DNA of 64,000 nucleotides. It comes from Owenia fusiformis (taxonomy: Eukaryota > Annelida > Polychaeta > Sabellida > Oweniidae). The notes beneath the pieces were generated by a model. That model did no database searches, had not been told where the DNA came from, and worked only from the letters and a program-made list of their open reading frames with translations. Every line of letters starts with the position of its first letter. Position 1 is the stretch's first letter. Where the stretch lies: contig CAIIXF020000010.1 in NCBI GenBank assembly GCA_903813345.2, positions 36,633,425 through 36,697,424 on the forward strand, given 5' to 3'. Below, piece after piece: positions 12,353-59,469 of the stretch. The position numbers and the translations under genes were made by a program.

Positions 12353-12359
12353 CTCTGAT

Positions 12360-13193: not shown

Positions 13194-14075
13194 ATGGCAT
13201 CCACTAAGAAAATTGTTGGACTATCCATCGAATATGCTGCTAATGCTATATATCAAGCATCTGCGATGATTATAACAGCCGGCGCTGGTATGGGAGTTGA
13301 TTCAGGTCTACCCGACTTCAGAGGTGACAGAGGATTCTGGGAAGCATATCCTCCCTTAAAAAAGCCTGGAATAAATCTTCAAGATATGGCAAATCCAAAG
13401 TGGTTTGATAGTGATCCTAAATTTGCATGGGGGTTCTATGGTCATCGTTATAAATTATATAAGAACACGACTCCTCATGATGGATTTGGAATTTTGTTAA
13501 AGTGGGCGAAATCAATGGAGAATGGTTACCATGTATACACAAGTAACGTTGATGGACATTTTCAAAAGGCAGGATTCCCAAAGGACAGGGTAGATGAATG
13601 CCATGGTACCATACATTATCTCCAATGTGCTGATGTTAGTATATCTGATGCTATATGGCCCGTGCCCGATAATTTTGATATCCATGTCGAAGAGTCCACC
13701 CTTAGGGCCTCAAGTCCTCTCCCCCTTGGCCCTCCGAGCAACCCTACCCACCTCGCAAGACCGAACATCAAAATGTTCCATGATGCGACTTGGATTAACA
13801 CACGCACATCCGCCCAGGAAGTTGAATTCAAAGCTTTTGAGGAAAAGCTCATCGGTGATGGCACTACATTTATCGTGATTGAAATAGGAAGTGGACTAGC
13901 TGTGCCTAGAGTCAGAGAAAGAGCAGAAACTATTGTTAAAAGATCAAAGGGTAAAGGAACACTTATTCGTATTAACCCTGCGGAGTCCACTGTCCCCCAT
14001 GGACAACATATAGGACTACCTCTTGGTGCCCTTGAAGCTATTACAAGCATTGACAAAATTCTGAAATCAACGTAG
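13194..14075 (+). CDS. Intronless SIR2-family NAD-dependent protein (bacterial-like, no zinc ribbon)
   Basis: A 293-residue single-exon frame with the sirtuin NAD-binding core: G-A-G-M-G-V-D-S-G-L-P-D-F-R-G (about 30-44), T-S-N-V-D (116-120), catalytic-type C-H-G (His137), A-R-P-N-I near 188, and an E-I-G-S-G / R-I-N-P C-terminal half. Classical sirtuins bind zinc through two C-x-x-C pairs. Here only two cysteines are visible (136 and 145), so the ribbon is missing or degenerate. The length and the F-W-E-A-Y-P-P-L and F-Y-G-H-R segments resemble a SIR2 group common in bacteria. Function could be deacylation or NAD hydrolysis. Having no introns, it may be a horizontally acquired gene or a retrocopy. 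GC content rises in the middle (13650-13800). ATG at 13194 is the first in-frame methionine (AAAATGGCA). Confidence 0.85.
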   Translation: MASTKKIVGLSIEYAANAIYQASAMIITAGAGMGVDSGLPDFRGDRGFWEAYPPLKKPGINLQDMANPKWFDSDPKFAWGFYGHRYKLYKNTTPHDGFGILLKWAKSMENGYHVYTSNVDGHFQKAGFPKDRVDECHGTIHYLQCADVSISDAIWPVPDNFDIHVEESTLRASSPLPLGPPSNPTHLARPNIKMFHDATWINTRTSAQEVEFKAFEEKLIGDGTTFIVIEIGSGLAVPRVRERAETIVKRSKGKGTLIRINPAESTVPHGQHIGLPLGALEAITSIDKILKST

Positions 14076-20547: not shown

Positions 20548-23500
20548 CTGTATTGGTAAGGAAATAGCAACCTTAATTATTTTGTATCATTATGATATAT
20601 GTTATTCACTTTCACTGCTATTTCTATGTTTGACATAGAAATCCTGTGACCAAAAGCCATTTTAACAGTCATTTCTTTTCAGTAAACAAAGGGTATGATG
20701 TCGGGGGAGGAAGGGGGGCAAATGTGTCTCACATGATCAGTTGAAAATTAAAACCGTTAAAACATTTTTGACATGTTGTAATGTAAAACGTTACTTATTA
20801 CTCAGTAGCTCATGGTAAATGGTGGGATTCATTATGATCAATTTGTGTTTACTGAACGTTCTGAAGTGCACATTTTTACTGATCTCAGGAACAAAGTCGG
20901 GGATAAACTTCAAACATATAAATAGGATAATACAATGGAATACTGAGTAAGCTACCATTTAAGGAATCATCCAGCTCCATTTACCCATTAACTGATATTC
21001 GTAGATCAGTCCAGAGCCATTTTGGTTTTCGGTGTATAAGATAATGTATCTTATAAACAATTTTAGAAATTCGCAGCAGTAGCTAAATGACGAGCAAAAC
21101 CTTGCAGTATTAAGTCTTTAAAGATAATAGGTATATTGACTCATTATTTTACAGAAATTGCTGTAATTGTGCATTTTATCTTCAGAAACGGTGTAAGAAT
21201 AACTTTTTAATGTGTTGTAAACATGTGTCTCCCTCCCCGTGAAATTACACTCGTCATTCTGGAAAATGTTTCTGAAGAATTACGGTGGAATGGGACATGC
21301 TTTTGATCTAGAATGCAAACGCACGGTTAAATGGCATTTTTTCAAATGGAAGTCTTATTTTGACTAAATTAATTTCGAGTAATTTTGAGTTTAAAATGTG
21401 TAAAAGCAAAATTTTATGATGCAGAAAAAAGTATTGCAGCTTTATTTTCTTACCACTTAAGATAACAAAGGTCTCCTTCTTTAGTTTCTTCTCTAGTTTT
21501 GTATAGTTTTCACATCTGATGACATCTTCTACTGGATCAGGGGGTCTTTCACAATGGGATTTCTCTTTTACTAAAATGAAGATACATTTTACAGATGTAT
21601 ACTCAAATTACTATTTCTATCAATATCAGCTAGTATACATACAATTATCAATTGTGTTATTCCACTTTAGAAATTTATTATTAACATTTAAAGCTGCAAG
21701 ACCATGGGTCGCAGAAAAACCTCTGCACAACCATGTTCATTAAACGACTTAATTTTCACCAAATCAAATCGAAATCAAACTTTAAACTATTCCATATGTA
21801 CTGCCCTTTCCTGTAATACATCAAAACGATTAGTAAATACCATTATGTGGCATCTAATACTCCCTCCTGAGGGTCATAGCAACTATAACCTGGCTTGTTA
21901 CATTAATAAAAACATCATTAAAAATCCCATTGTTTGACCAAGATAGATAATTGCAGTCACGATTTCGATGCGCAAATGATAGTACTATACGTATTAACAT
22001 TTTCACGCAAACCCCAACATTTCTTCGAATTGATATGATCATCTCTCGAAACCACGAGCAGTGTCATTCAAGGGATCTCTTAATAAGGAAAAGGATGTGT
22101 CCGGATATATGCCCTTTTGGTCCCTCAGTCAAATGTATGTCAAATATGGTTTTTATTAATGTCCTAGTTATATTTGATAAGTATATTTACTTTTTCACGA
22201 GTTTTGATGCATAATTAACCCCCTGCTGAGAGTCAGAATAAGTATCTTAACAAAACAAAAAAATAGTCATTATCATAGAAAAAACACCAATGGCAACATG
22301 TATGACATACAAAGAAGAAATAACTTAAGACCCATGAAGAATTTTAAAGAAAATCATATTTTTGAAATATTTAAGGATTAATTTTTTTTTCAAATTTTTG
22401 AATTTCCCGCAAGTTCAATTTGAAGGGGAAAAACAAGATGGCTGCCATTTGATGTAAGAAATATCAGAAAAAAAGTTGCTTCACTTTTAGTTTTCAAAAT
22501 GAGCACAGTTTTCCGGTTTAGGTTTTTTGACTGATTCTGACTTTTCATCACCAGGGTCATGTATAGAGATTATAAAATTGAAACTAACATGTTGTGCTCA
22601 GCATGAATTTGACTGAAATATGTGTAACTTCACCAACACAATTGAAGTCTCAAAACTGGATGCTCAGTAACTTTGAATGACTATAATCCCTTGATTACCC
22701 AGATAAACACCAATTCACTTATCCAGAAATACCATTCAACACTGGCATGTAGCGGCCCTGATATCGATAAATTCTACACGCAATATAACCCGATTTTAGA
22801 TGCTTGGTTAAAACTTTACACGAAAAAGCCTCGATATCCGGGCATTTACTCTTACACTGAACTGAAAATAGCATCGTCTAAACGTGTATGTCTTGGCTTC
22901 CGGCTAAGTTATTCAAAATTTATACTCAATTGAAAGAGCAGTCGTGCATATATCGTGTACCAGTTTGATTGTTTTATATGTGTGTGTATTTATAATATGA
23001 TAGTCTAGTAATACCGTGTCGTTAGAACAAGTGCTAGATATCGAACTGATGACCTGAAATTAGATTATTGGACTGATCGCGCATCTGATATTAGATGATT
23101 AATTTGCATTGAATCTGATATTAACTTGCAACCCAATACTACAGTAAATACCATGATTTTACATTAGAATGATAACACGGCCTCATATTCTAATTCATTA
23201 TACGTCCATTGCAGGCCAAAAATGTTTCAATGGGGATATTGTAATGCACACGAGAATACATTCGATTCGTATATATTGACACCCCAGTTGTCCGAAACCC
23301 TACCCTTTGCATTCGTTTGACTTCACTTCTTAAAAGAGAGCTTCGACTTAACTAGACTCTGCACGCAGGGTACCGAAACCCAGTTGTCCGAAACCCAATA
23401 GGATAGTTTCTAAATAGCAGAAAAATCAATGAAATCTCGTGCTGCCATCTTTTATTCAGCTTTTAACTCTGGCTAGAGCTCCATTCACTTACATGCTAAA

Positions 23501-26500
23501 ATCTTGGAAAAGTGGCTTAATTTCATTATTTATCAAATTGTGTTTGTTGAATCTGTATAAAACTTGAATGATATACCACATGATGACCCTGTTTATGAAC
23601 ATGTTGTGATTAAACATGCTAATGTTGATTGACATACAAATAATCCACGGTTTTAAAGAATTTTAGCATTGCATCTATGGACATTTGGCCCAACTTTTTT
23701 TAAATTGTCATAGAAAATTATTCAAATTACATAACTGTGTAAATCAAAGCTATTTTAGGAGAAAACATTCCACTGAATTCAAATATACCATTTAAAAGAA
23801 GGTAATGTAAGTCATTAGAGGTCTAATATGCAAGTCTCTTAAAATCTCACGAAAAACGAGATTTAGCGAGATTTCAAAAGCTATATGGAAACTATACTAT
23901 TCCCCGAAACCCAGTTGTCCGAAACCCATTACTCCGAAAAATAAAGTCATAATTTACCAGAGAAGGGGGGGGGCGTAGCTTACTTAAGCTTACGTCAGTT
24001 TCATGCCATGTATTTGGCCAAATTAATGGCATGGACGCATTCTGATATTCATAGATCTCTCTCTCACTTTGAATTGCATCCATTGCATGGCGTTACCAGA
24101 ATGGCAGGAACGGGAGATTTATTTTACATTGTGATTCTAAAAAAGGTTATTAAAACACAATATATATTACGGAACAGTTTATCTTATCTTCTTCAATCTC
24201 TTTTATATAGGCAAAATAAAATGAAACATTTTGAAACAGATAAAATAAGGTATAGAACTTTAAGAATAAAACAGTATACAAATTACGTTGTCAAAATATT
24301 TCGTCGCATTTAATTTCTTAGTCTCAGTCTCTTATCAAATCGTAAAAGAATAAAACATTCTAAACTTAATCACTTGGGATTTATGTTTCGGCATTCGTTT
24401 CAGGCATTTGTTTTTTATGTTCTTCTCCTGAAATGTATTTGTTTGACAATAATCAGAGAAAGTGCGTATACGTATAAATATGCCACGCAAACAAACGGGT
24501 GTGACTTCAATTTCTTGTCTGTCTGAGGACGTATTGGGAACGAGGTACAATTAAAGAATTCTTATGAACAAATGTATTGGATAAGTTAATTTCTGATGGA
24601 TCTGGATAAAATATATTTCAAAACTTTGTCAACACTAGATAACTTCATTTAGGCAGATATAGTATCTTGATATATTTGGCTATCATGCGTTTAAAATACG
24701 TTCCTAAAACTATGAAGACGTTGGGTGAGAAATATTGCTATTGTACGTTCGAAAAGTATTTGGTTGTATTTTGTAGTTCTCAAGTTACCCATGAACTTTC
24801 GTGGGCTAATTAACGTCTTGACTCAGCATATTTAGCCTAATTTTGCAATGATGTCAACGTGATTCAAATGTTATGCTGTCGTGATTCGCAGAGGTTGCGA
24901 CAAGATTCGTTTTAAGAAATTGTATTTTTTGATAAGATCCCCTAATTTTCGGAGAACTTGGTTTCAGACAACTGGGTTTCGGAGAATTGAGTTTCGGACA
25001 ACTGGGTTTCGGACAACTGGATTGACCCCTATGAGGGTTGATCATACATCAATTGAACATGGAGATTTTCCTGTACACTTTTCCCAAACATGTGGAATAG
25101 ACTAGATGCGAGTAGAAATTATCTTGATTTATCCTATGCCAAGTAGGGTTTTAGGGAGATAAGTTGGTAAGATATATCCCGTATCCTGATTTTGAGGTTT
25201 CCATATCAAGAACCTCCATATCTCCCGTCATATCTCCCGCTTCGGTGCATATCTTCCCGCTTCGGGTCGTATCTTCCCGCTTCCAAAAAAGTGGAAATGC
25301 AATAAAATGACTTTGCATATGAATGGTTTGTTTATTTTTTACACCTTGTGCTACTGAAAACTCTACTTGGTATAGGATAAAGCAGTTATGTACGGTTGGT
25401 TTGGATATTGGGTTCATCCCTCGTGAGATATGCACATCTACTTTCTGTCCCTACGGTCCCTCAGGTAGATATGCATATCTCCCTCTGGAAAAACCCCGCA
25501 TCCAAAACCTCCCAGTACATAACCAGTATTTATCCCATGGTTACAAGGATATAGATCGAATATCACGTGAAGATATAATTGATACGTGGATGAAGATATC
25601 ATATTTTAGCAAACAATTCCCAAATCATCGAATATCACTTTTGAAACCATCGAATATCACTTTTTGAAAGGTGATATTCGATGGTTTCAAATTGATATTC
25701 GATGGTTTCAAAAGTGATATTCGATGGTTTTGATTTTTTCAATTTTTTTTATTAATTCAGCAAAACGATTGTTTATGAATACCTAGCAAGAGCTCAAAAA
25801 GTTCAATCATCTATTTATCTCAAAAAGACCTCAAAAACTGAGCTTGAATTAGAAATATGTCTTCTAAAATCTTCCTCGCCTGGACCTGATGGGATTCTAC
25901 CATCACTTATTAAGTCTGTAAGACAGTTTTTAATTGATCCGCTCTTGTATATATTTAACTTATCTTTTAAATCTGGTATTTTCCCAGACGCCCTCAAATT
26001 GGCCAAAGTAACACCTGTATTTAAAAAAGGAGTCACTACAAATCCTTCGAACTATAGACCAATTTCAGTTTTATCGGTATTTTCTAAATTGTTAGAAAAG
26101 CTCATGCACGCCAAACTCACTGGTTTTTTAGAACGTTTTGAAATTATTTTTACTTATCAATTTGGATTTCAGAAATTCAACTCTACCTACATGGCCATTT
26201 TATATTTCATTGAACAAATTCGAAAATCAACTGATTTGGGGAAAACGAGCATTGGCATAACATAAGATTTTTCCAAGGCCTTTGACACTATTAATCATGA
26301 CATTTTGATACAAAAACTTGAATATTATGGCATCGGAGGAATAGCTAAGTCCTGGTTTGAAAGTTATTTAAAAGACTGCAAACAATATGTCACCATTAAC
26401 AATTATGAATCTAAACAATCATCTCTAAATTGTGGTGTTCCGCAGGGCTCGGTACTTGGACCACTATTATTTATTCTTTACATAAATGATCTGCCTTTTG

Positions 26501-29500
26501 TTGACCCTAATCTAAAATTTATTATGTTTGCTGATGACACCAATCTTCTTGATAGTGATTATGATTTAAATGAACTTATGACTAGAACTAATGCAAACTT
26601 GAATTCAATAGATGACTGGATAAAAGCAAACAAACTTTCACTTAATATTGGCAAAACCAATGCTATTCTATTTGGACCCCAAAAAAAATCTGAATCTCAA
26701 AATACGCAATGAGAACATAAATTTCCGGGATAAAATTGACTTTCTTGGAATTATTATTGATAAAAACTTGAAATTTAAAGATCACATAAAATCTATTGAA
26801 ACAAAGATTTCTCACGTCATTGGTTCTCTTTATCACATTAAACATCTACTTCAAATAGACAGTTTCAAAACAATTTACTACTCATTGATGCACTCTCAAT
26901 TAAATTATTGCAACATAATCTGGGGTAACACATTTAAATCATTTTATGATCGTCTACATAAACTGCAGAAACAATTCTTAAGGCTAGCTTTAAATAAAGG
27001 ATAGACCTTCTCACTCCGCTCCCTTATTTGAAGATCTTAACATATTAAATATTTTTGATGTCAACAGATATTGTACTGGTCAGTTCATGTACAAAATCTT
27101 TGATAAGCACCCCAGTCTTCCAAAAAATCGATTTCAAGACTTGTTTGGTATCAACATTAATATTCATCATCATTACACAAGACAATTGCATTATTTTCAT
27201 ATCCCTAAATGCTCTAAACTTTCCCTTCGCTATCTAGGTCCTAATCTTTAGAATGCTCTACCACATGATATTAAAAAATGCTCCACTCTAAATATTTTCA
27301 AATCTTCATATAAAAAACTACTCATCTATCGATAATGTATAATACCAATATCATACTATACTGTTGATTTTATACTGATACCTGATTTTTGTAACATTTT
27401 TACATTGTACATCCTTAGATTAATTGTTAATACCATTTTTATATACCTACATGTAACATAATATAAGTGTTTTCTTTTATATGTAGTCTAGATGTCATTT
27501 TAATGATTTCTGTTAGACCGCAACATATACCCACTAGGGTGTCTAGCGGCTTGTTTTTATAGTGTATATTATATAATAATTATGAAATAAATTGAACTGA
27601 ATTGAATTGAATTATATATTTATTATATATTTCTATTTTTTGGGATCCTGTTTTTACGGCGTTCGCATTAAATACAAACCACTCTGTTACGTCACGTATA
27701 TGACGTTCGTTGAATTATCGCAATCAAAATGTCAGACGAAATGGAATTTCCATTACAATTTATGTGACTATTCAATGTTCGCTGGATAATAATTCCCAAT
27801 GGGATAAACGGACAATCCTATAGTTTTTCAAAAATATCACTTATATCCACTCATGGATATCAGTATCTTCACTCATTCGCTGCGCTCACTCGCGAAGATA
27901 TCAATATCCACTCATGGATATAAGTGATATTTCAGAGCCATAGGATATTCCTATATTATTCCATAGTTAGCATGATATCCATAGGATAACATGTCAAAAT
28001 AAAAACGGTATTTTTGAAATCAGTGGTAAAATATGATATTTTTGGCAAATTTTCACTTAACCATAGCATACGGTGTTTTAGCCATGACATGCGGCGCCGT
28101 ATGCCATGGTTTATGGATTTTTGCTACTTCAGACTCAAAACGAGGCTAAGTGTCAATATCGCCGTATCGTTTGGAAAATTCGTTTTAGATCACTTAATTC
28201 CCGAAGATTCTGATGATGACTTTAACTATGGAATATAAAGAACATCCTATGATTTACTCGTGATATGATTTTAATCCACTCATGGATGTTGATACATGTA
28301 TCTGCACTCTCTCGCTACGCTCACTCGTGCAGATATCATATCCATTCGTGGATAAAAATCATATCACTCATAAATCATAGGATATCCTCTATTTAAGATG
28401 TGATATTCGATAGTTTAAAAGTGATATTCGATGGTTTGTAAATTGTTTGATAAAATATGATATCTTGATCCACATATCAAATATATCATCATGTGATAAT
28501 CGATCTATATCCTCCTTGCAACCATGGGATAAAGCTTTACGTCCCGCTCCAAGCGGGCAGATGTAGTATATCTGCCCGCTACGTCATAATCGCCGCTTGC
28601 ATATTTGTTCATAATTTGTAACGTTCGCGGAATGACTGTAAACGGCAATGGAGAAAACACAGACAATCAGGGTCTGTTTGATAGTTAAAAAAAGGGAAAG
28701 GGCATCCACTTTATCAATAAAAAATTCGAGAAAATAAATATGGGATTATTTGAGAGAACATGAAAATCCGCCCACGGCCAAGAAAACAAAACTGGACATG
28801 AATATTCTAAAATATTTCCACGATTTAACAATGTGAACCAGATGACCAAGATTGGTATGGGATAAACATATTATCCTATAGTCAGGAAATTGGGATTATC
28901 CCTTGGCCAATATATAGGGGTTATGCAATTGGAGGTTTTGGATACAGGGAATATCCCGAGGGATATACAATATATCTTCCCGAGGGACCGAAGGGACCAA
29001 GGGAAGACATATTATATATCCCTCGGGATATTCCCTGTATCCAAAACCTCCAAGTGCATAACTGTTGTATATAGTTTAGCATGATATGTACTTCTTTCTG
29101 TAACTGGAATACGATTCTAATATACAAGCAGCACATACGTATTCCCGGGGAACCATAAATATTTTGTGTAGTGTGTGGACATTTTTCTTTTCATTTCTCT
29201 AAAATCAGATTATTCTCATAAAATTCATACAAAGTTGGGCCTAAGCCTCTATTTTCGTATTCTGCATGTTAAGATATTTATAATGTAAAACCTAAGAGAT
29301 AAATTCAATGTCTTCAGTTGAGAATAAGTATAAGGTAAATGTGTGAATTCTGCTTGTTGTTGCACTATTTTTATAATAAACAAGGTTCGATACGCAACAC
29401 TGAATAGACTGCAGTCATAGCTTAGTTGTAAAGAAAACAAAAGAAGTTGGGACGTGGTCATGCTTGAATACGATTTTAAATATATCGCCGTTTACATTTG

Positions 29501-32500
29501 TTGAAATCGGCCTGTATTAATTTCAACAGGTGATCGGTGTACAAGGGCATATATTTGAGTTATTGGTTTAACGATAAGTATGACCTATGAGTGGGTAACG
29601 TTTTACAAATGCATGAAACAAATACTCCAATGGCCTAATCTCAATTTTCCTGCATAAACTATTACATTGAAATGATGGTCATTTGCTCTCTAACTTCCGC
29701 ACCGCATACGTAACTTCGTAACAATTCAATAAGCCAAGACAGGACCGCTATAATCGCTACATGCCAGTGATTCAATGTCTCTTCAAAGAAAGTAAGCAAT
29801 GTTTTGGAGGATATGTTTCAAACCTTTTGTATAAACTATTCATTTAATATTTGCCATTGATTATTTTTCAATTCTGACAAAGTGATATGCACTGTCTTTG
29901 ATGCCAATTTTCTTCATCGATTGTGATACAAATTGATATTTAGGTAATCTCAGAAGAAGGATTAGATATTGAAGTTTAATAATATGTGTGATTAAATTGG
30001 TTTTTCAGACATTACAATTTTCAATATTTTCTAAGTCGATACCCAGACTCATTCCCAGACTCATCCTTTAGAACGTCATTTTTATTTTTAATAACATATG
30101 ACGCAACGCTCATTACTCGCACACGTGTTTTCGTTAGAAGAGATCCCCGCGATCATGAGACGTGTGACACAAATCTGTATAATTAGATAAAACTTACCTG
30201 ATAGTATTATGATCTATGTTGACGTGTATTGATCTTTGGCATATAAAGAATTTCGAAAACGAATTTTGTCTGTCATATCTCGTTTTAGACTAAATGAAGC
30301 TGGATTTATCGACATATTATCTACAAATATTTTCGACATCAAGAGAATTTGATTTTATGGTAGTAAACAAGTATTTTGAGGAATTATAAGTAAATTATCT
30401 GTCCCATGGTCGCTCGGTTTGGAATTGTGATATCAATACCTAGAGGTTTATAATGATATTTATCATGCACCTCATTAAAATACTCAAATCTGATTGGTTA
30501 AGAGCTGCAGGGTTTATTGCCATACGTGGCAGCAAGATCCATCCCGTATGCCAGAATACCTATCCATGAAAAATACTAGCCTCTGCTTCTGTTTTAGTAG
30601 ACCCATTCTTAAAATAAAGTATTTCTTGACAATCTAACACCATCTTTTATTTATCTACAGTAAATTAATGGTAGGAATATGATATTAACAAAGGGAGGTG
30701 CATAATAAAATAAAAACTGGGAGTTCGCCTCGCCTAGTATTTTTTCTTCGGATAGGTATTCTGGCATATCCACCTCATGGTCATCCAGTATTTGTTTAAT
30801 ATCGTTACCTTGTAGGTTAAATGAAAATGATCAAAAGATGTCCTTGTTTCCTTATGACTGGATATGTACTTTGTCATGCTATTTGGTATTTTCTGTTTGG
30901 CGATTATGCTTAATATATGAGGTGGCATTAACTAGTCTCAGAGTACTCTTGACAAAAAGTGTTTCAATTTTTGAATTTTTTGCTTCATATATTCCTTTGT
31001 CATGTCTTGTTTCTAAAATCCCTTAACCGTATACTGTACTTGTGGAAAACCTGAGATTTTTACAATAATGTATTCATTTTTATATAAATATGGTTACCAA
31101 ATTTATTATTTGAAAGAATTTAAAGAATATTCCCCACTTATACACTATGGAACTTAAACAAATTCACTAATTGATAACATATCGTGGATCTTTTGGGAGA
31201 TATTGTATTTGAGATTGTAAGGATAATATTGGTAGGCCAACTGTACATGTTGCTTGCAATTTGGTCACTTCCTATAGATCAGAGGCCTCATCACCCGCTC
31301 GTCGAAACGCAGATTCGCAAGTGCACCGCACCGCAACGCAAGTTTTTACGGATCGCAATCAGGATTAGTATCATCCGCTCGGCGCAACGCAACGCAATCG
31401 CATATTGATAGATGTTTCAATCGCAACTGACCAAAAGTTGGGATAGCTCTTTCCCTACCGCCAATAGCAAATATAACCCATATTTAAGACAATTGTTATC
31501 TATTTAAAATGTGTCAATCTAGGATTTCTTTATTGATTGCGAAAGTACGTTCTTTTCTCAAGGTGACCGAGTAATAAAAAGTTAGTTTATGTTTTTCGAA
31601 AGTGCTTAAATCAAAGGAATCGTTAATGGTATGAGGGGTGTTTAAAACCTTCGAATATTATAATTAAATCTAAATTCTGATCGCAAATCCAAGAAAACGA
31701 AACGCAACATTCATTCTGGCATCGCTAAAAATGGGCATAACTTTGAGGTTCTTTGCAACAGGCAACTTACAAATGACAAATATGTTGGATTTACACTAGA
31801 GCACCAAGACGTCTTGGCTAAAACGTTTAAGCGTTAAAACTTTTTACAAATGTAATGTAAATCCAGATTTTCTTAAGAGCTCTAAGAGCTAAGAGCGCTT
31901 AGTTAAAACGTTTTAGGACCCTAGTCATAGCCAAGACGTCTTAGCGTTAAAACGTTTTACAAGCGAGTGTTAATCCATCGGTTTTAGCTAAGAGCTCTTA
32001 GCCCGGTTTTTGCGTGATTTGCAGCGGGGCAAGAGCTATCGCAACTTTTTAGTAAGTTGTGATTGAAAGATACAAATCCTGATTGAGATTCGAAAAAACT
32101 TGCATTGCGTTGCGGTGCGCTTGCAAATTTGCGTTGCGACGAGCGGGTGATGAGGCCTCTGATTCTGTCTTTAAGTTCTATTGGAAAATAAATAATGCCT
32201 GGGTACGTGGAGCACAATCTGACATCGGGAGTCGAATTGACAAAGTTTAAAAGGCCAAAAATTAAGTTTGTTTAAATGTGTCATTTCTTATTGTATTTTT
32301 GATTTGGATAGTAAAAATGTAGGTGACTTGGTCAAACCATTGGCTTGGTTCTAGCTGTCTATTATAAATATATAAAAAACAAGTGAACAACTAAATTGAT
32401 TGTGAATCTTACACCATATGGATCAAAAGTATTAATTACCTGTATCTTCTAGCACTGGTAAGAGGGAACCGTCGTTTGCTCTTAGTGTCCAGATTCCGTA

Positions 32501-33070
32501 CGTGAAATCTGCAACGAGCAAACCCAACACAACAATGGAGATAACGAACATAGCCACAAGCATGGCGACCCTTCCGATCACTCGAAGGACATCGCATTGT
32601 ATACGTCTATTATCTACTGAACAAACGAATTTGCTATCTACTTCAAATCCGTATAAGAAACCTTGAGAAACGATAAAGCAAGTCTCAAAAACTGCCCTTA
32701 TCGCAGTTTGAACAAGGTATCCTCGCTCGACATTCTTAGAGATGTTCTTCTTGTGCTTAATGGACCACAAGGATGGAAAATAGAAGCAAATCAAGACGCC
32801 GATTGTCAACCCTAACTGCATGAACCAATGGTAATGGGGAGGCCACGATGTAGCGAATTTTACATAACATCGTTGCCTCAGACTTCCGTATTCCGAATCC
32901 AAAGTGCTGTTCGGTGTACATGCAAGGTAGTCTTTATTGAAGAATTCTGATTGAGCAACCAAAGTAATAGCAACTCTTGGAATGTAGAGAACAGTCACCA
33001 GGAATCCAAAGATCGTGAAAAAGTTGGATTGTTCATTAATCTGTTTGACACTGTTTTTGAGTACATCCAT
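17996..33070 (-). CDS. Paralogue 1: connexin-like 4TM + NB-ARC STAND NTPase + TPR-like protein (3 coding exons)
   Basis: Gene model: exon 1 33070-32440, exon 2 21570-21454, exon 3 20547-17996. All splice sites are GT-AG and both junctions are phase 1, giving one 1099-residue frame. Order: four-TM connexin-like domain (1-190), linker (about 200-249), Walker A G-L-S-G-S-G-K-T (250-257), Walker B L-F-I-F-D (Asp342), L-P-L-G (about 417), winged helix (about 471-490), R-M-H (548-550), and a Lys/Glu-rich helical TPR-like region (about 820-1099). STAND NTPases of this kind act as nucleotide-switched, oligomerising sensors. The N-terminal domain would be the effector, here probably a membrane pore. 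The intact full-length paralogue at 41396-46550 supports the model. Exon 1 could be a separate gene because intron 1 is 10.9 kb, but phase, order and the paralogue argue against that. Confidence 0.75.
20548..21453 (-). other. Intron 2 of paralogue 1 (906 bp)
   Basis: The donor (minus strand) is AGTG|GTAAGAAAA at 21453 and the acceptor CAATACAG at 20548. The split codon G|GT is the first glycine of Walker A, exactly as in paralogue 2. No other gene is visible inside. Confidence 0.8.
21454..21570 (-). CDS. Exon 2 of paralogue 1: linker
   Basis: 117 nt, phase 1 on both sides; acceptor CTTCATTTTAG, donor AGTG|GTAAG. It encodes about 38 residues containing E-R-P-P-D-P-V-E-D-V-I-R-C-E-N-Y-T-K-L-E-K-K-L, then a strand (T-F-V-I-L-S) leading into the P-loop. 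The counterpart in paralogue 2 shares E-R-P-P-x-P-V-E-D and C-E-N-Y-T-x-L-E-K-K-L, so this exon is conserved and therefore real. Confidence 0.85.
23282..25031. mobile_element. Inverted-repeat element with CAGTTGTCCGAAACCC ends
   Basis: 'cccagttgtccgaaaccc' occurs at 23283, 23380 and 23908. The inverted form 'gggtttcggacaactgg' occurs at 24978-25022 in tandem, with partial forms from 24951. Repeated short terminal units on both sides suggest a foldback-type transposon of about 1.75 kb. No transposase is seen. Confidence 0.65.
23300..23360. repeat. 60-bp repeat, inverted copy at 37016-37078
   Basis: 'acttcacttcttaaaagaga' followed by 'gcttcga' and 'actagactct' recurs inverted at 37016-37078. 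It is part of an unidentified dispersed element and is embedded in the 23282-25031 element. Confidence 0.7.
25104..25135 (+). repeat. Dispersed 35-bp repeat, copy 2
   Basis: Same 'actagatgcgagtagaaat' unit as at 4341. Here it directly follows the 23282-25031 element. Confidence 0.6.
25627..25735. repeat. Tandem and inverted copies of a 24-bp unit
   Basis: Repeats of 'aaaccatcgaatatcacttt' are followed by three inverted copies 'gtgatattcgatggtttc', which can fold into a long hairpin at the inner edge of the left arm. Confidence 0.8.
25810..27612 (+). pseudogene. Non-LTR retrotransposon fragment (reverse transcriptase), broken
   Basis: RT domain in order: S-S-P-G-P-D-G, then F-K-K-G with N-Y-R-P-I-S, then D-F-S-K-A-F-D, then G-V-P-Q-G-S-V-L-G-P, and the catalytic F-A-D-D near 26530. 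An in-frame stop precedes D-F-S-K-A-F-D (26263-26265), and frame changes follow at about 26712 and 27004. There is no endonuclease, so the copy is 5' truncated. It ends in short gaatt repeats (27591-27612), as in CR1/L2-type elements. Inactive. Family placement beyond 'CR1/Jockey-like' is uncertain. Confidence 0.85.
27832..27932. repeat. Large hairpin with CGCTGCGCTCACTCG loop
   Basis: 'aatatcacttatatccactc' then 'atggatatcagtatcttc' is mirrored by 'gaagatatcaatatccactc' then 'atggataagtgatatt'-type sequence at 27894-27932. The loop 'actcattcgctgcgctcact' has the same core as the second hairpin at 28243-28386. Confidence 0.8.
28243..28386. repeat. Second large hairpin, related to 27832-27932
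   Basis: Arms 28243-28310 and 28325-28386 share 'atcctatgattta' and 'tgatatgattttaatccact'. The loop is 'ctctctcgctacgctcactcg'. With the first hairpin it brackets 27940-28240, which holds a 74-codon open frame of no recognised family. The pair looks like ends of a single foldback element. Confidence 0.75.
28540..28600. repeat. Small hairpin (agcgggcagat)
   Basis: 'agcgggcagat' at 28552 is mirrored by 'atctgcccgct' near 28570-28580, next to the right arm of the 3-kb element. Short foldback; no other function seen. Confidence 0.6.
28922..29060. repeat. Palindrome with 46-bp arms
   Basis: The left arm 28922-28967 starts 'tatgcaattggaggttttgg' and contains 'atacagggaatatcccgagg'. It is mirrored almost exactly at 29015-29060. 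The centre reads 'cgagggaccgaagggacc'. Related phrases ('ccctacggtccctcagg', 'atccaaaacctccc') occur at 25450-25515, and 'ggaggttttgg' at 49690, so this is one member of a dispersed foldback family. Confidence 0.85.
29061..30547. other. No gene seen in intron 1 segment
   Basis: Within intron 1 of paralogue 1. Short open frames only, no motif, no clear repeat. Confidence 0.4.
30548..30772. mobile_element. Small foldback element with about 35-bp arms
   Basis: 'tatgccagaatacctatcca' followed by 'tgaaaaatactag' (30549) is mirrored by 'ctagtattttttcttcggat' then 'aggtattctggcata' (30735-30768). About 150 bp lie between. MITE-like; duplication not determined. Confidence 0.7.
31278..32163. mobile_element. 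MITE with about 90-bp inverted ends rich in CGCAACGCAA
   Basis: The left end 'atcagaggcctcatcacccg' then 'ctcgtcgaaacgcag' is mirrored at 32080-32163 ('acgagcgggtgatgaggcct' then 'ctgat'). The arms include 'caccgcaccgcaacgcaagt' and 'aatcaggatt'. The middle has its own mirrored 'agacgtctt' and 'aagagct' motifs (31808-31995). About 886 bp and non-coding. Confidence 0.75.
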
Positions 33071-33091
33071 GACTGGTGTTTCAAAGATAAT
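32440..33091 (-). CDS. Exon 1 of paralogue 1: connexin-like four-TM domain
   Basis: Acceptor GTGTATTTCCAG at 33092, start codon ATG at 33070 (context CAGTCATGG), donor ACAG|GTAATT at 32439; the 21 nt before the ATG are 5' UTR, so a non-coding first exon lies upstream. There are 210 codons plus 1 nt. TM segments are at about 19-39, 83-103, 122-142 and 166-188. The first loop has Cys51 and Cys68 followed by Y-V-K-F-A and an aromatic run before TM2. The second loop follows G-F-L-Y-G-F and has Cys150 and Cys159. Topology, loop cysteines, R-C-Y and F-L-Y-G-F recall connexins, which usually have three cysteines per loop; here there are two, as in innexins/pannexins. An earlier in-frame ATG at 33103 lies inside the intron end. 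Confidence 0.8.
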
Positions 33092-41395: not shown

Positions 41396-43845
41396 TTACG
41401 GATCGTTCATTGCATCTAGTAAGTGCTGAAGTTTCGTGATGGTATCTTTCTTTATTTTTTCCTTCGTACACATGTCAATTGCTCTTGTTGCATAGTTTTT
41501 CGCCTTTTTCCAATCCTTCTTATGACGTCCATACAGGCATTCTGCAATCTTCTGCAGTGCTTCAATCTTTCGGTCAGCCCTTTGATTAACACTAGGTACT
41601 TTATCTTCCAATTTTAGGACTTTTTCGTACTTTTCAATGGCGTTATTCAAATACTTTTTGTTCTTGATAGTTGGTTCGTTCATTGCCATTTCGAGGTCAC
41701 CAAATTTTATGTAGATTTCTGCCTTGCTCTGATAGTTCTCATCTTTTATGCCGTCAAGAAGGTTTTTGGCTTCCTTACATCCTTCTTTATATTTGTTTTG
41801 CTTTTTCGTGCTGTTTTCTTCGACCTTAACTGTGGCAATATAACAATTTAGCAATTGCTTTTGGCATATTGTATGATGATATTTGTCCTCGCGTGGTATT
41901 ATTTTCAGCAAACCTTTCTCATAGTAGTCACCGTCTGCATTATACAATTTCTTGTAACGTTCTATTGCAGTATCAATTCTCTTCTGATTTTTACTATCAA
42001 CATCTGTGTATAGAAAGCCGTTGCGTTCAGCTAAAAGCAGCGTGGCTATCTGTTTGCCGCTCTCCTCTTTAATTATGACAGATAGCTCATAAGCGAGGCG
42101 CAAGTCATGTTCATAAACCTTTGCTTCCTGTTCGTTTTTGCTTTTGTAAAAATACATACGACCATGCGTGTAGAGAATATTCGCCATAAATTCAATAAGG
42201 TATAAATTCTTCATTTCTTTTAAACTTATTGCGGCGCCGTGATTCACCCACTTTTTGTATTTGCTTGTTATGCGATCATCATCAGATTTACTCCCGGTGT
42301 CTTTCAAATATTTTCCCGGAAGTTCAGCTCCATCAGACTTCTTTTCTGTTTTCTGTTTTTTCGAAAGTTTCTTCGGACTAGTTTTCTTTTTTTTCTTTAG
42401 GAGTTCAACAATCTCGCTATTGAGACGCCTTGTACATACTAACGCTTTAAGAAAGTCTTTTGGCTTTACAGGGATGGGTATTTCTTTCAGTCTGTCGTTA
42501 ATCAATTTGGCTTTCTCTTTTATAAATTTAGTATCGGTGATACAATAAATTTCTTTAACAGGCAAATTCTTTTTTGCTTCTTCATCCAGGCAAGATTCAT
42601 CCTTTTTTATGATTTTGGAATAGCACAGCTGTTTAGCTTTCGAATCGCTCACATTAAAGTACCTTATCAGCCCCGTTTGTGAGTACATATAATGTAGCTT
42701 ATCTTGGAGACTTATTTGTACAATGTTGATACCAACAGCCTGCTCTTTTGCTCCTTTCAAGTCAGTTCTCAGTGCAAGTTTTACATGAGGAATCAGCTTG
42801 AGAAAGAAATTGAAATCCTTAGCACGACGTATGTCTTTATCAACAAGGTCGTCAAGGATTAATAGCATTTCTATAGAATATGTGATCCTTTCGTTTTCAT
42901 CCCAGCTTTTTTGAATTGCTCTTATTGGAATATTATGCATACGTAGCATCTTGTTATCAGATCCCTTTATTTCCACTGTCCCTAGATGGAATCTCGTTAT
43001 CACATCGATTATCTTGTTTCTCCTTTTTGCCATTTTATCCAATTCAATAGAACGATCAGCTTTCCTTTGAAACGGGTCTTCATTGCCGCTACCTATCGTC
43101 CAGTCGAGAACATCAAATGGTATCGGATCAGGGCTTAGTGCAGCAACAACATTGAGTAGTAGTTTAGCCTTTTCATCTTGTTCACATTCCTTGCATGCCT
43201 TTTTGTGTGACATTTGAAACAAGCTATCTAATGCGTCCTCTTTACCACCCTTCAGTTGGTCAAGAAGCTTGGGTATGGTTCCTTTAGATTCGATAATGTA
43301 TTGACACGCTGCATGTATTCCCAGTGGCAAATAGTCAAGCTTCTTTGCCAAATTTTGCATATCTTTGCCTTTGAATTGGTTGTATTGGCAAATAGTGAGG
43401 GCGTCAACATCTGCCTTGGAATAACCTTTAACTTCGAGTGTCAAATTCTCAAACCCTTTTACAAATGCATCATTATCATCGCTTGAGGTAATTATAACAG
43501 TAAAAGAACTATGGTTAAGGAAAACCTCTTTGACAATAGAAGATGTATCAAACATTGCACGATCAAAAATAAACAACGATTTTTTATTGTCCTCAAGAGA
43601 TTTATCACGAATACGGATTAGCAACCTCCATGCTTTGTTCGTCATATTAGCGCTGTCTTCTCCATCTCTACCACTGTCAAAAATTTGAATGTTCAGTTTA
43701 CATTGATCGATTAACTTCTTACCATCAACTAGGATGTCCTCTGGGGTTGATGAGTTGAAACAGAAGCACGTGCTGTCACTGTTTTTGTTTGTAAACTTCT
43801 TGGCGTAGAGGAGGGCTAGTTGTGTTTTTCCAGAGCCAGTGGGAC
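41396..43845 (-). CDS. Exon 3 of paralogue 2: NB-ARC STAND NTPase and TPR-like region
   Basis: The exon opens at an acceptor GTTCAAACAG (AG at 43847-43846). A methionine in the same frame at 43861 lies in the intron and is not the start. Intact frame of 816 codons plus stop. The NTPase part aligns throughout with paralogue 1 (same F-I-F-D, G-Y-S, L-P-L-G-I-H-A-A-C-Q-Y-I, R-M-H spacing). A Lys/Ser-rich tract (about 42330-42400) replaces the acidic duplicated segment of paralogue 1. The C-terminus (H-G-R-M-Y-F-Y-K, E-H-D-L-R-L-A-Y-E-L-S, A-I-E-K-Y-E-K-V-L-K-L) is the best conserved part and shows TPR-type helix pairs. Confidence 0.9.
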
Positions 43846-46550
43846 CTGTTTGAACATACAATATGTTTATTCACAAAGAGCACCATGGGTATTTAACTTA
43901 TACAAAGGTGTGTTCACAAATAACCATCCTTGAAATTGTTAAGTGAAAACCGGTTGGACGATTTTTGTACAATTAAAAATGACAGGTTTTTGATTTAAAA
44001 TACGTGCCCATAAATTCACACGGTTTTGTATTGAAATAAACGTATATCTGATAACTATAAACCAATGCTTTAACAATTCACAAATTGCTACGTTGTATCG
44101 ATTGTGGTGACCAAAGACCTAGAAACATGGCAATTAGGCGTATTTGATAACCAGGCATCAGGAAGGAGCCCAAGATGACAACATATGGAAATGGACGGGG
44201 GGGGGGGTAGATTTCCCAGAGATGACCTTTCATATTGGCACGTTTGAAAACAAATTTTATGAACAGGCCTCATTTGCCATTGAACTGAATCTCCCTATGT
44301 TTGCTGTAGTTTCATGAGTATTCTCTACAAGTTTGGATCGAGTAACTTCAATAGTATTACCGTAGGTTTAAAATGCTGATATTGAACTGATGTTAACGCC
44401 ATTTTAACAATTTCAAATTTTACTTTGCGCATGCGGAGCCCTGAAAGAGCATGTGCTCATGATTGTTCACGTGATCGCATCCTGCAATTTGATTTGAGAT
44501 GATGCGGGAGATATCGATGACGTAATGGGGAATCCCCGAATACGATAGAATATAAAGAGATTATGGGAGCTACTCACTTCTTCTGGAAATGGAAGTGAAT
44601 TTAACCAATATGTGACAAGGGACAGATGTGAATAAAATAGAGGGAAATGGAAATTAGTGAAGACATTTTTGGAACAAGTCCATTTCGATGCAATAAAATC
44701 TGATGGAGGAGGGCACACTAACTATTTAGGACATCATGAAAATATAGCCAAATTTCAACCAAGATCATTGAGAGCTGTTGAGTTAATGTTACTTTGGATT
44801 ATATATGATATATCATACTAGGTAACTTATTTGACACCATGTACATATCGTATATACGTATATGTTATTCCATTTTTTTCTAAATTACAACTGTGCTGTA
44901 TGACTTAACATAGCGAACCCATAAAAATATCAATGCAAGTTACAAAGTTGATTTGACACATGTGACATCTTTCGTGTGTCTTCAGGTCAAAAACGATTAT
45001 GGAATACAAGCAACTCCGACTTTTGATATTTTCGTTTTTAATTTGCTAATGGACGACTTTTGCTAGATTTTGTCTAACTCCCAATGGACATATCATTGTA
45101 GCTAGCAAACCATTAGTCACAGCTTTCATAGTAAGTTGGCTACTCCATTTTGAATTCCTGAGAATTTGATTAGTTGCATTAAGCATATAACCTACTTAAC
45201 CTACGTGCGGTACACTACGATCAACAACAATTTCAAATTTTAAGAAATAATTTGACAAAAAAGATGAATGAGAGAGAAAAAATAATTCATAGTACTAATA
45301 CTTGGCTTATAATATAACGGGGAATTAAAAACGCTAATATTGAATGAATATCGGACTACTTTTGTCAGATTTAGATTTTTATAATTTTATTTGCCCCTCG
45401 CGGTTTCTCTTTGCTCGTCTAAAATCGTTAATATGATCACCACAAATGGTCAAAACGATGTTAGCATCTTTTATTTACCTCTTAAAACAATCAATGCCTG
45501 TTTCTTATCGTTGAGCTTCTTTTCCAAATTTGTATAGTTCTCGCACATGATGGCATCTTCTACTGGAGCCGGTGGTCTTTCATGAACAATCTTCTTTTTA
45601 CCTGGAGCCACATAATATTCTAACTTATTTTAAATACATATTATATATGCAAGAACTATCGGGATCCATGAATCTGTCATGTTTACAAAATTGTTTTTTT
45701 AGTTCTTTGGTATTATCGTATTCTGTATTTATTTGGGGTTTTCACAATGTCAAATTTTCACCAAAAAATGTGTTTAATTTGTAATTCATTTAGGAATTCT
45801 AAAAGCTAAAAAATGTATATTTACTATTGGAATTGTTCTAATTATCACTTTCAGTGTAATTTCACTAATCACATTAATTCGAGAAAGAAGTTGTATTTAT
45901 AGCAAACGTATCTTACTTTTTTCTTCAAGCACGGGTAAAAGGGTCTCGTCGGCTCTCAGCATCACTATGGTAAAGAGTAAATCAGTCACGTGCAAGCCAA
46001 AGGCGAGTATGGAAAAAACAAACATAGCAACCAGCATGGCAACGCGCCCATTCACTCTAAGCACATCACATGGTATCTTTTGATTTTGGATTGAACAAAT
46101 GTATCTTTCAGAGACGTGGAACCCATATATGACACCCTGGGAGATGATGAAACTGAGCTCGATAACTGTTCTTATGGCTGTTTGTATAAAGTAACCCGGA
46201 GCAATATTTTTCGATTTTTTCTTATTGTGCTTTAGAATCCAGACGGATGGAAAGTAGAAGCAGATCATAACGCCTATTGCAAGACCTAACTGTAGAAACC
46301 AATGGTAATGTGGCGGCCATGATGTAGCGAATCTAGCGTAACATCGTTCCTTGAGGGTCTCCGACGCCCCGGAAGTACCATTAGGTGTGCATATAAGGTG
46401 GTCCTTATTGAAGAATTCTGATTGAGCAACTAAGGTGATGGCAACTCTAGGGATGTAGAGAACGGTCACCAGAAATCCAAAGATCGTGAAAAAGTTTGAT
46501 TGTTCATTGATATTCTGAAGGCCACTTTTAATTCCTTTCACGACCTCCAT
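41396..46550 (-). CDS. Paralogue 2: connexin-like 4TM + NB-ARC STAND NTPase + TPR-like protein (3 coding exons)
   Basis: Gene model: exon 1 46550-45917, exon 2 45601-45479, exon 3 43845-41396, GT-AG sites, phase 1 at both junctions, total 1068 residues. Order: four-TM connexin-like domain (1-192), linker (about 200-252), Walker A G-P-T-G-S-G-K-T (253-260), Walker B L-F-I-F-D (Asp347), L-P-L-G (435-438), winged helix with S-P-D-P-I-P-F-D-V-L-D-W (about 490-502), R-M-H (554-556), a lysine-rich low-complexity stretch and a TPR-like C-terminus. It is compact (introns 1633 and 315 bp), which makes the fusion architecture much more certain than in the expanded first copy. Likely role: a ligand-triggered oligomeric membrane channel, possibly in innate immunity (inference). 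Confidence 0.85.
43846..45478 (-). other. Intron 2 of paralogue 2 (1633 bp)
   Basis: Donor AGAG|GTAAATAA at 45478 and acceptor at 43846. It includes a poly-G run near 44199-44208. No gene within. Confidence 0.75.
45479..45601 (-). CDS. Exon 2 of paralogue 2: linker
   Basis: 123 nt, phase 1 on both sides; acceptor GGCTCCAG, donor AGAG|GTAAAT. It encodes 40 residues with H-E-R-P-P-A-P-V-E-D-A-I-M-C-E-N-Y-T-N-L-E-K-K-L and then A-L-I-V-L-R before the P-loop glycine. Two residues longer than in paralogue 1. Confidence 0.85.
45602..45916 (-). other. Intron 1 of paralogue 2 (315 bp)
   Basis: Donor AAAA|GTAAGATAC at 45916 and acceptor at 45602; phase 1. Stops follow the donor in the exon 1 frame (R-L-L then stop), which supports splicing rather than a short protein ending there. 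Confidence 0.75.
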
Positions 46551-46577
46551 GGCTGATGTATTGTACTAGATTCGATT
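45917..46577 (-). CDS. Exon 1 of paralogue 2: connexin-like four-TM domain
   Basis: Acceptor TTATATCTCCAG at 46578, 27 nt of 5' UTR containing an in-frame stop, then ATG at 46550 (context CAGCCATGG). 211 codons plus 1 nt. TM segments are at about 21-41, 85-105, 124-144 and 168-190. Loop cysteines are 54 and 70, and 152 and 161. It shares long blocks with paralogue 1, such as N-E-Q-S-N-F-F-T-I-F-G-F-L and F-A-T-S-W-P-P-H-Y-H-W-F. The second loop follows I-Y-G-F, the counterpart of L-Y-G-F. The cytoplasmic loop between TM2 and TM3 is Lys-rich. The C-terminal L-L-P-V-L-E-E leads into the linker exon. Confidence 0.85.
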
Positions 46578-56608: not shown

Positions 56609-59153
56609 CTAGTTGTAGTGGTACTTTGGGTTGTGGAAGTGTTTGTCAATTTGCGCCTTGAACTGGTTGACATTGTCAGCATCTATTGCAGTCAGTGGGA
56701 GATTGTTCCAGTCTTTCACAATTCTGTTTCCGAAAACATTCTTCCTGACATTCAGTCTACTGTATCTTGTATTGAGCTTCTCAGTGTTTCCTCTGGTTCT
56801 ATGTGCTTCAGATTTTTCAGCAATGTCTGTGATATTAATCCTGTCAAGACCTTTTATGATTTTGTAGGTTTGGATGAGATCCCCTCGTCGCCTTCTGTAC
56901 AGGAGTGATGGTAGCTTCAGGTATCTTAGCCTATCCCCATAATTCATGTCCTTAATTTCTGGTACAAGTTTTGTCGCTCGTCTTTGGACCTTTTCTAGCT
57001 TGTCAATATCCATGTTGTGGTGGGGATTCCATACGCTGTTTGCGTATTCCAAGTGGGTTCTTACAAGTGATTTGTAGAGAAGAGGGAGGATTGTTTTGTC
57101 CAGATGGGAGAAAGTTCTTTTTATTATTCCAAGGATGCTATTAGCTTTAGAGACTGATAGGTCAACGTGTTGGTGGAACTTGAGATTATTGTCGATATTG
57201 ACTCCAAGGTCCTTTTCAGTTTTGGTGATATCCAAGATCTGGTCATTCATGGTATATTTATGTTGATCATTTCCATGTCCAAGGTGCATTACTTTGCATT
57301 TAGCGGTATTAAAAGGCAACTGCCATTTATTTGACCACTTAGACATATTATCCAGATCCTTTTGTAGTGTTCTTTTGTCTTCTTCGGTTTTAACTTTGCC
57401 GTAAAGTTTTGCATCGTCAGCGTACATGAGTATCTCGTTCTTTGTTGCTTCAGGTAAATCGTTGATGAAGGCAGCAAACAGGGTCGGCCCGAGGCAAATT
57501 CCCTGAGGTATACCAGAGGTTACAGGGGCCCACTCTGATACTTTACCATTTACCGAAACTCTCTGTGCCCTGTTTGTAAGGAAAGACCTCGTCCAGGCTA
57601 GTAATTTTCCTGTTATTCCGTAGGATTGTAGTTTTACCAGTAGTCGCTCGTGAGGCACACTATCGAACGCTTTACTAAAATCAGTATATATGGTGTCTAT
57701 AGGGGTCCCTTCATCAATATCTTGAGTTATATTTTCTAAATTTAGAGATTTAGCACTGTCGATCTCTTTGGCACAAAACCAAACTGTTCATCTGTGAGGA
57801 GATTATTTTTGATGAGGTGTTCCAGAATTTCATCCCTTACAATTTTCTCCAACATTTTGACAACTATTGATGTGAAGCTTATTGGTCTGTAGTTGCTGGG
57901 TTGTTTCTTCCTGTTGGTAACATTCTTTAAAAAATTTTCACTTCCTTTTTTGAAAATGGGGGTGATGTCTGCAGTTTTCCAGTCTCTGGGGAGTGAGCTA
58001 GTTTGTATAGACTTGTTAAATAAGATAAGGAGTGGGATTACCAGTGATTCTGCTGTCTCCTTAAGGGGACGGGGATGAAAACCATCTTGTCCTGGTGATT
58101 TTGTAGCAATCAGTTTGTTTAACTGGCTCATAACCATTTCCTTTGTTATTTTAAGGTCACTAATCTTTTCTTTACTTGGGTGTGGTGACATTTGAGGTAT
58201 ATTGTACATGTTCAGTTAAGTTCAGTTCATTGGTTATTGGTTATTGGTTCATTGGTTATTGGTTATTTAGTGTCTGTGCCTTTTCCAGGTCTGTTTGGGT
58301 TTCTGTTCCATCTTCCATCACTAAGTTAGGGATTGTTTCTTGGGTATCTAGTTTGGATTTAGAGTACTGCCAGAATTGTTTAGGGTTCTTTTTGACTTCT
58401 AAGGCAATTTTCTTTTCATAGTCGTAGCTCAGTTTCCGTGTGTAGGCCCTGAGGTTGTCCCTTGCTTCATGGTATTGCTTTAGGTTTGTGTCTGTCCTAG
58501 CTGCTTTGTAGTTTTTTCCAATATCTATATTTCTTTTTACTCATTTTTATTGCAGTCTTATTAATGTATTTGCTTCTTCGCTTGTCTTTCCTGGGGTACA
58601 TTTTCGGTATGCATTGATCGATGGCATTTTCGTACACTGTTTTGAAATAGGTCCAACTCTCTTCCATAGATTTACTGTTGAGTTGTTCTTCCCATTCGGT
58701 TTCTTTTATTAATTTGTTCATTTCCTGGTAGTTTCCTTTATCATAGGCTAGTTTTGCTTTTGATTTTTTATTGCTACCCTTTTGGTTTTTGTAGTTAGTT
58801 TTGATTAGCAAACACTCATGGTCACTCAGTCCTAATGCTGGTAGGTGTTCAAAGAATTCAACTGTAATTTCATGTTTTGTTAAAATCAAATCATATATGC
58901 TAGGTGTGGTGGTCCCTCTGGATCTAGTTGGGCTTGTTACATGCTGTATCAGGAAGTTGTCGTTTATACAGTCTATGAACTTGTGTGCTGGGTGACTTTT
59001 ACTATCTGAGGAGGTTATTGTTTCCCAGTTGATATTGGGGTAATTTAAGTCTCCAACTATAATCAGGTTACTCCATGTTTTGCATACTTTATTAATTTGG
59101 TTGTTCAGGTCTTCATTATTTTCTTCAATCGCGTTTGAAATGTACTCTCCAAT
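56609..59153 (-). pseudogene. CR1-like LINE: endonuclease end plus reverse transcriptase, frameshifted, 5' truncated
   Basis: Reading on the minus strand: the C-terminal part of an AP-type endonuclease (G-D-L-N-Y-P then G-L-S-D-H-E, 59153-58800), a linker to 58497, RT N-terminal half (S-P-G-Q-D-G, F-K-K-G, N-Y-R-P-I-S, 58209-57742), RT core (G-I-P-Q-G, Y-A-D-D near 57420) and a C-terminal region ending at 56609 (57658-56609). The three pieces are in three frames, and a short 'attggttattggtt' tandem repeat (58225-58275) interrupts one junction. The 5' end stops abruptly at about 59153. Inactive copy. Confidence 0.9.
58222..58276 (+). repeat. Short tandem repeat (attggtt)n inside the LINE
   Basis: Repeats of 'cattggttattggttattgg' accompany a frame break in the LINE coding region. 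Confidence 0.8.
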
Positions 59154-59469
59154 GTATTATGGAGGCAATAAAGATACATAAACATAAACATATAACATCA
59201 AAATATTGAAAGATACACATAACAAAATCTGAAGCAATACATTTTCTCAATCAATATGAAAATTGAACAGGTTTGTGAAAATATCAAAAATCCAGTTATT
59301 TTGGCTGTTCCATTAGTCTGCCTCCTATTTATACCCCATCTCCCTCTTTAAGAGATATAGACCGACGAGCAGGTGTAATATTAGGGAGTTTGCTCTGTTT
59401 TTCACAACCTAAACGTGAACGGAAAATATTTAAGCGATGCATTTGTATGGCTGATTGGTCATATACGTA

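Follow-up and report, generated by a model that had tools for sequence, protein, structure and literature searches.

In a stretch of 64,000 nucleotides from the genome of the annelid Owenia fusiformis (contig CAIIXF020000010.1, forward-strand positions 36,633,425 to 36,697,424; hereafter "the window", to which all coordinates refer), two minus-strand genes encode predicted proteins in which a connexin-related membrane domain of four transmembrane helices (TM1 to TM4; 4TM domain) is joined to an NLR-type ATP switch of the STAND class and a tail of tetratricopeptide repeats (TPR). Together with further deposited products they belong to a small Owenia gene family for which this architecture is well supported. 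We read its members as membrane STAND sensors with a connexin-type pore as effector, at a probability of roughly 55%; the architecture can be seen in the genes, while pore and gating are what we infer from it.

Two three-exon genes and their products

The first of these genes, gene A, had been proposed in an earlier note made from the letters of the DNA alone, and the exon borders given there are exact: translation starts with an ATG at 46550, three minus-strand exons follow one another, the last closing with the stop codon, and the joined frame has, as claimed, 1068 residues without an internal stop. Both introns are indeed of the GT-AG type with phase 1 junctions; the donors start with GTAAGA (exon 1) and GTAAAT, the acceptors end with CCAG and ACAG. 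Exon 1 (45917–46550), an open frame, encodes the connexin-like 4TM domain (residues 1–211 and the first base of codon 212); exon 2 (45479–45601), in phase 1 at both ends, encodes a linker (ERPPAPVED...CENYT) and the strand that precedes the P-loop, and contributes the first base of the codon for the first glycine of that loop; exon 3 (41396–43845) encodes the STAND NTPase, a winged-helix region, the TPR tail and the stop. Residues 140–1068 (929 residues) are identical to a deposited O. fusiformis protein, P0001.

When the translated window was searched with the product of gene A, a second gene of the same three-exon plan appeared, gene B (33070–17996, minus strand), which was absent from the earlier note. 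Its introns are likewise GT-AG and in phase 1; its exons encode the 4TM domain (32440–33070), a linker homologous to that of gene A, without in-frame ATG and in phase 1 at both ends (21454–21570), and the STAND NTPase with TPR (17996–20547). The spliced product equals, over its full length, the deposited protein P0002 of 1099 residues. Intron 1 of gene B spans approximately 10.9 kb and contains reverse-transcriptase open reading frames (ORFs) at 25756–26712 on the plus strand, that is, opposite to the gene. A transposon artefact was considered and dropped because these ORFs lie in the intron and not in the exons; likewise, a pseudogene reading was dropped on account of the open frames and constrained dN/dS, and contamination because the products sit on contigs of 37 Mb and 35 Mb.

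Over 1032 aligned residues the products of A and B agree at 60%, with complete identity across 37 residues spanning TM1 and across 12 residues before TM2. Silent divergence between them (dS) is about 1.0–1.4; P0006, another deposited product, is still more distant. By the NG86 method, dN/dS between the two genes is 0.146 for the 4TM segment, 0.156 for the linker, 0.208 for the STAND segment and 0.236 for the tail; by YN00 it is 0.155, 0.384 and 0.441 for 4TM, STAND and tail, respectively, the linker not having been computed. All values are below 1, which fits constrained coding sequence. Among further deposited Owenia products, in P0003 and P0006 the latter half of the 4TM domain is joined through the linker to the STAND-TPR part, P0006 being located on a contig other than that of the window; P0005, a partial, has only TM1 and a piece of loop 1 ahead of the linker. 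A full-length protein search, in which the 7999 candidates sharing most words were scored, returned six products, all named Owenia; with region 1–215 of P0002 as the query only P0002 itself was returned, and with the 4TM alignment one further Owenia product. As these searches also returned no vertebrate connexins, they are too insensitive to show absence outside Owenia.

The 4TM, linker and STAND-TPR exons probably form one protein. The NTPase is incomplete without exon 2, which supplies the strand leading into the P-loop as well as the first base of the first glycine codon there; and because this exon is in phase 1 on either side and that of gene B lacks an ATG, it requires an upstream phase-1 exon, which the 4TM exon offers in both genes. 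This, and the conservation of the exon plan in gene B, supports the single transcription unit assumed in the earlier note. One might instead suppose that two products are made, a stand-alone connexin-like protein of 212–217 residues and a separate STAND-TPR protein, the fusion being an annotation error or a minor form. Reading past the donor of exon 1 leads to a stop within 2–6 codons in both genes (45897–45916 and 32432–32439, minus strand), so an unspliced transcript could yield the stand-alone protein, and the deposition of P0007 as a 4TM-only and of P0004 as a STAND-TPR-only partial would fit as well. However, besides the phase and content of exon 2, three facts speak against two products and make them improbable: intron 1 of gene A measures merely 315 bases, P0002 was deposited as a complete fusion, and P0007 terminates at the same edge as the 4TM exon. 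The genome paper reports RNA-seq support for 31,678 of 31,903 filtered transcripts (PMC9977687), which is a figure for the whole set and not gene-by-gene evidence.

The N-terminal membrane domain

Judged by its sequence, the N-terminal domain is a connexin homologue; the connexin-like character ascribed to it earlier is borne out by Pfam, by profile matches in the PDB and by control sequences. The cutoff of Pfam Connexin (PF00029) is 31.3 bits; the whole gene A protein reaches 34.0 bits (E 3.3e-8), and its exon frame alone (45897–46550, exon 1 plus the codons to the next stop) 43.7 bits (E 3.6e-11), with the best stretch at profile positions 137–223 of 225. For the exon frame of gene B (32432–33079) the score is 48.2 bits (E 1.5e-12), for P0002 40.4 bits (E 3.7e-10), for P0006 39.9 bits (E 5.1e-10) and for P0007 47.1 bits (E 3.2e-12); in the latter two stretches each pass E 0.01 alone, the second without a stated position. 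P0003, at 24.6 bits, is below the cutoff, and the family is not listed for P0005 (E up to 0.1) or for P0001 and P0004 (E up to 0.01), all of which lack much or all of the domain.

When the gene B domain (32438–33073) was compared with the PDB by phmmer, the nearest connexin was Cx36/GJD2 (E 2.6e-8), which aligns over TM3, extracellular loop 2 and TM4; 20 of the 21 matches listed were connexins, the other one standing at E 1. A profile of A and B matched connexins only (25 of 25 at E up to 10, best 1.1e-9, again over TM3 to TM4 of Cx36), and so did P0007 alone (20 of 20, best 6.5e-10). None of nine controls (eight within-segment shuffles and one reversal) matched Connexin, their best match to any family, at E 0.002, being below cutoff. 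As aligned, helices and loops follow one another in the same order as in connexins; the match is carried by TM3 to TM4, and the region from TM1 to TM2 aligns in order at 0.8 to 5.7 bits.

The four transmembrane segments described in the earlier note stand in part: a plain hydropathy threshold yields only three peaks across the 4TM domain of either gene, and it is the alignment and a modelled helix that add TM3. This segment (about residues 122–143 in A) is polar, and is placed by alignment with TM3 of connexins and by a helix in a low-confidence model. In gene B the threshold also flags two stretches of the STAND region (338–369 and 458–488). A structure model of the 4TM domain, made from two sequences, was poor, and fold searches with it are not used as proof. 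That weakness, and the occurrence of two cysteines per loop in innexins and pannexins too, would suit a convergent four-helix protein unrelated to connexins. We consider convergence very improbable, because in the 4TM exons of both genes Connexin alone among Pfam families exceeds its cutoff, with neither an innexin nor a pannexin family listed up to E 1, and because the PDB matches of the profile and the controls described above point the same way.

Each extracellular loop holds two cysteines, as had been claimed (54/70 and 152/161 in A); the same number is found in B and P0007, whereas three would be expected of connexins. In loop 2 the pair aligns with connexin cysteines one and three. In loop 1 the third connexin cysteine is matched by the second of the pair, and the first of the pair falls either on the first connexin one (P0007) or one to two columns off (B and the profile of A and B). 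By these alignments it is the middle connexin cysteine that is missing from both loops. In connexins the two middle loop cysteines pair with each other. The domain is thus not a canonical connexin, and we prefer to call it a connexin homologue whose loops are of the Cx23 type; Cx23 shows the same pattern, lacking the second cysteine of each loop as the stated exception of its family (PMC4729916). Cx23 is described as forming hemichannels, with differing reports on gap junctions (PMC4729916, PMC3920103): for the zebrafish protein, with four loop cysteines, gap junctions as well as hemichannels are reported (PMC4729916, PMC3920103), whereas mouse Cx23 apparently forms hemichannels only (PMC3920103).

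Other features set the Owenia genes apart from connexins, namely a sequon in loop 1, a very short loop between TM2 and TM3, a cytosolic C-terminus that is a STAND-TPR module, and the annelid host. The loop-1 sequon, of the N-glycosylation type, reads NGT in gene A (residues 57–59; 46374–46382, minus strand) and NST in B and P0007; in P0005 it is NIT by reading of the sequence. It agrees, as does the net charge of +4 of the TM2-TM3 loop in both A and B, with a topology in which loops 1 and 2 face outwards; taken together with the Cx23-type cysteines, these features suggest, short of proof, such a topology and undocked channels. Gene B, however, carries one more sequon (NIS at 109), within the loop taken as cytosolic.

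Outward, glycosylated loops would imply a large pore of the hemichannel type that stays undocked and probably makes no gap junction, and the sequon in A, B, P0007 and P0005 counts against a true cell–cell gap-junction subunit with coupling controlled by the STAND switch. In pannexins, loop glycosylation hinders gap-junction formation (PMC8769644); the argument from the sequon is tempered by the statement in the same source that sequons are widespread in innexins too (PMC8769644). Connexin homology as such would favour a gap-junction subunit, as would the zebrafish Cx23; with mouse Cx23 on the other side, we regard such a subunit as unlikely.

The cytosolic switch and its proposed coupling to a pore

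All switch motifs claimed for gene A are present: Walker A, GPTGSGKT (residues 253–260; 43823–43845, the first base of its first codon coming from exon 2), Walker B, LFIFD (343–347; 43562–43576), LPLGI (425–429; 43316–43330) and the MHD-like KMLRMH (551–556; 42935–42952), all on the minus strand. Walker A, Walker B, sensor 1 and a winged-helix region, by which STAND proteins were judged, occur in this order in A and in P0002; in P0005 the sensor-1 pattern has no match. The bacterial FxSxx-COOH system TPR protein family (NF040586) finds a match in each of the six products with a STAND part, at E 1.9e-10 to 7.4e-18 and with best stretches 256–388 residues long, always within positions 16–374 of the 830 of the profile and far below its cutoff of 300 bits. 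A STAND region and a C-terminal TPR-type tail are common to both; the Owenia proteins differ in carrying the channel-like membrane domain.

Sequence therefore supports a STAND NTPase with NB-ARC-like motifs. The earlier assignment to NB-ARC stands at the level of motifs, the LPLG and MH motifs being those we take to be NB-ARC-like, but not at the level of Pfam, as NB-ARC is not listed for A or for P0002 (gene B) and appears for P0006 only at E 0.039, below cutoff. Other models came close to their thresholds, nSTAND3 in B just under (27.1 against a cutoff of 27.2) and ResIII, a helicase-type P-loop model, in A just above (23.6 against 22.5), with NPHP3_N below cutoff in both; matches by PADLOC were weak and limited to the P-loop region. 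In P0003, residues 135–142 form an altered Walker A (GPSGSEKT), so that one copy may be a nucleotide-binding variant.

The TPR tail foreseen in the earlier note is borne out by modelling, in which approximately the last 160 residues of B are confidently predicted as TPR (model residues 648–849, 17999–18604, of which 691–849, 17999–18475, are confident); the tail of gene A (about residues 862–1068; 41399–42019) is placed by alignment to it. In the structure model of the STAND-TPR region, good quality is confined to the tail and a portion of the NTPase. Against the PDB, the STAND-TPR alignment profile gave weak matches only (best E 0.019) and the tail profile a best E of 0.31; since the tail fills the structure matches listed, the lack of an NB-ARC structure among them carries no meaning.

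We propose that each gene makes one membrane protein. Its four connexin-type helices would be resident in the membrane with the loops outward or lumenal and glycosylated, and the NB-ARC-like STAND NTPase would hang below the pore, some 35–40 residues after TM4. The NTPase would hold ADP when off and swap it for ATP when on, the TPR tail binding a ligand or partner and keeping the switch off until then. On activation, an NTPase ring would assemble or rearrange and so assemble or gate a connexin-type ring, through whose pore ions and small molecules, ATP among them, may pass to signal alarm or death. The same architecture would serve if the 4TM domain were a connexin relic that merely anchors or clusters the STAND switch, the output being recruitment of other proteins and no pore being formed. 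Sequence alone cannot reveal pore function, and the less connexin-like half of the domain is the first, which in connexins contributes most of the pore lining. However, by either method dN/dS is lower in the 4TM exon than in the other segments compared, the identity of A and B across TM1 and before TM2 goes beyond the needs of a mere anchor, and two cysteines per loop persist; we therefore judge an anchor the less likely role, at something like one chance in a handful, and keep to the sensor with a pore.

APAF1 and the plant NLRs belong to the NB-ARC/AP-ATPase type of STAND NTPases; the Owenia proteins share with them the Walker A and B, LPLG and MH motifs and differ in having a channel-like membrane domain in the position of the effector. 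In plant resistosome channels (ZAR1 and its kin) a STAND ring is coupled to an N-terminal membrane pore, which is the same logic with a different N-terminal fold; while the plant coiled coils enter the membrane upon activation, the Owenia transmembrane domain would be resident. The LRRC8 volume-regulated channels combine a four-helix large-pore subunit with cytosolic leucine-rich repeats; they resemble the Owenia proteins in having a four-helix domain with a cytosolic repeat domain and differ in the type of repeat and in having no NTPase, and the LRRC8 family is not among the Pfam matches of A or B.

Surroundings and meaning

Elsewhere in the window, an uninterrupted Sir2-family ORF of 298 residues lies at 13179–14075 on the plus strand (Pfam SIR2, E 5.4e-15), and the first part of a rhodopsin-type G-protein-coupled receptor forms an open frame at 11454–11951 on the minus strand (7tm_1, E 2.4e-17). 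A LINE-like element in pieces occupies 56609–59156 on the minus strand (endonuclease 58497–59156, reverse transcriptase 56609–57787), and in the ORF list repetitive ORFs, with several overlapping frames open and apparently consisting of tandem repeats, occur at 3456–3979 and 11797–12435.

The earlier note knew of no described protein with this architecture, and among the matches listed in the open-licence literature no description was found. The sequence database names P0002 "Connexin cysteine-rich domain-containing", with Pfam Connexin and nSTAND3, which we take for automatic labels; as far as these searches go, the pair of domains is visible in databases yet undescribed. A survey published in eLife in 2022 reports no connexin-like protein in non-chordates except for one unconfirmed urchin transcript. 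Owenia, as an annelid, is a protostome, and a connexin homologue there speaks against the view that connexins arose within chordates. If the pore proposed here is indeed that of a connexin, either connexins would predate the chordates and have disappeared from most lineages, or the annelid line would have captured them, long ago in view of the silent divergence of A and B and the still greater distance of P0006; a phase-1 exon join would then have brought one into a STAND gene. With a protostome homologue at hand, the question of where vertebrate gap junctions came from can be tested anew. With a STAND switch and a large-pore channel domain in one polypeptide, nucleotide-driven assembly and pore opening could be studied together. 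Tentatively, at somewhat less than even odds, we see here a sensor and channel in one protein, its non-chordate connexin pore being opened by an NLR-like nucleotide switch and serving as the built-in effector of an innate sensor, not for cell coupling; with it, an animal NLR of the channel type could join those of plants.
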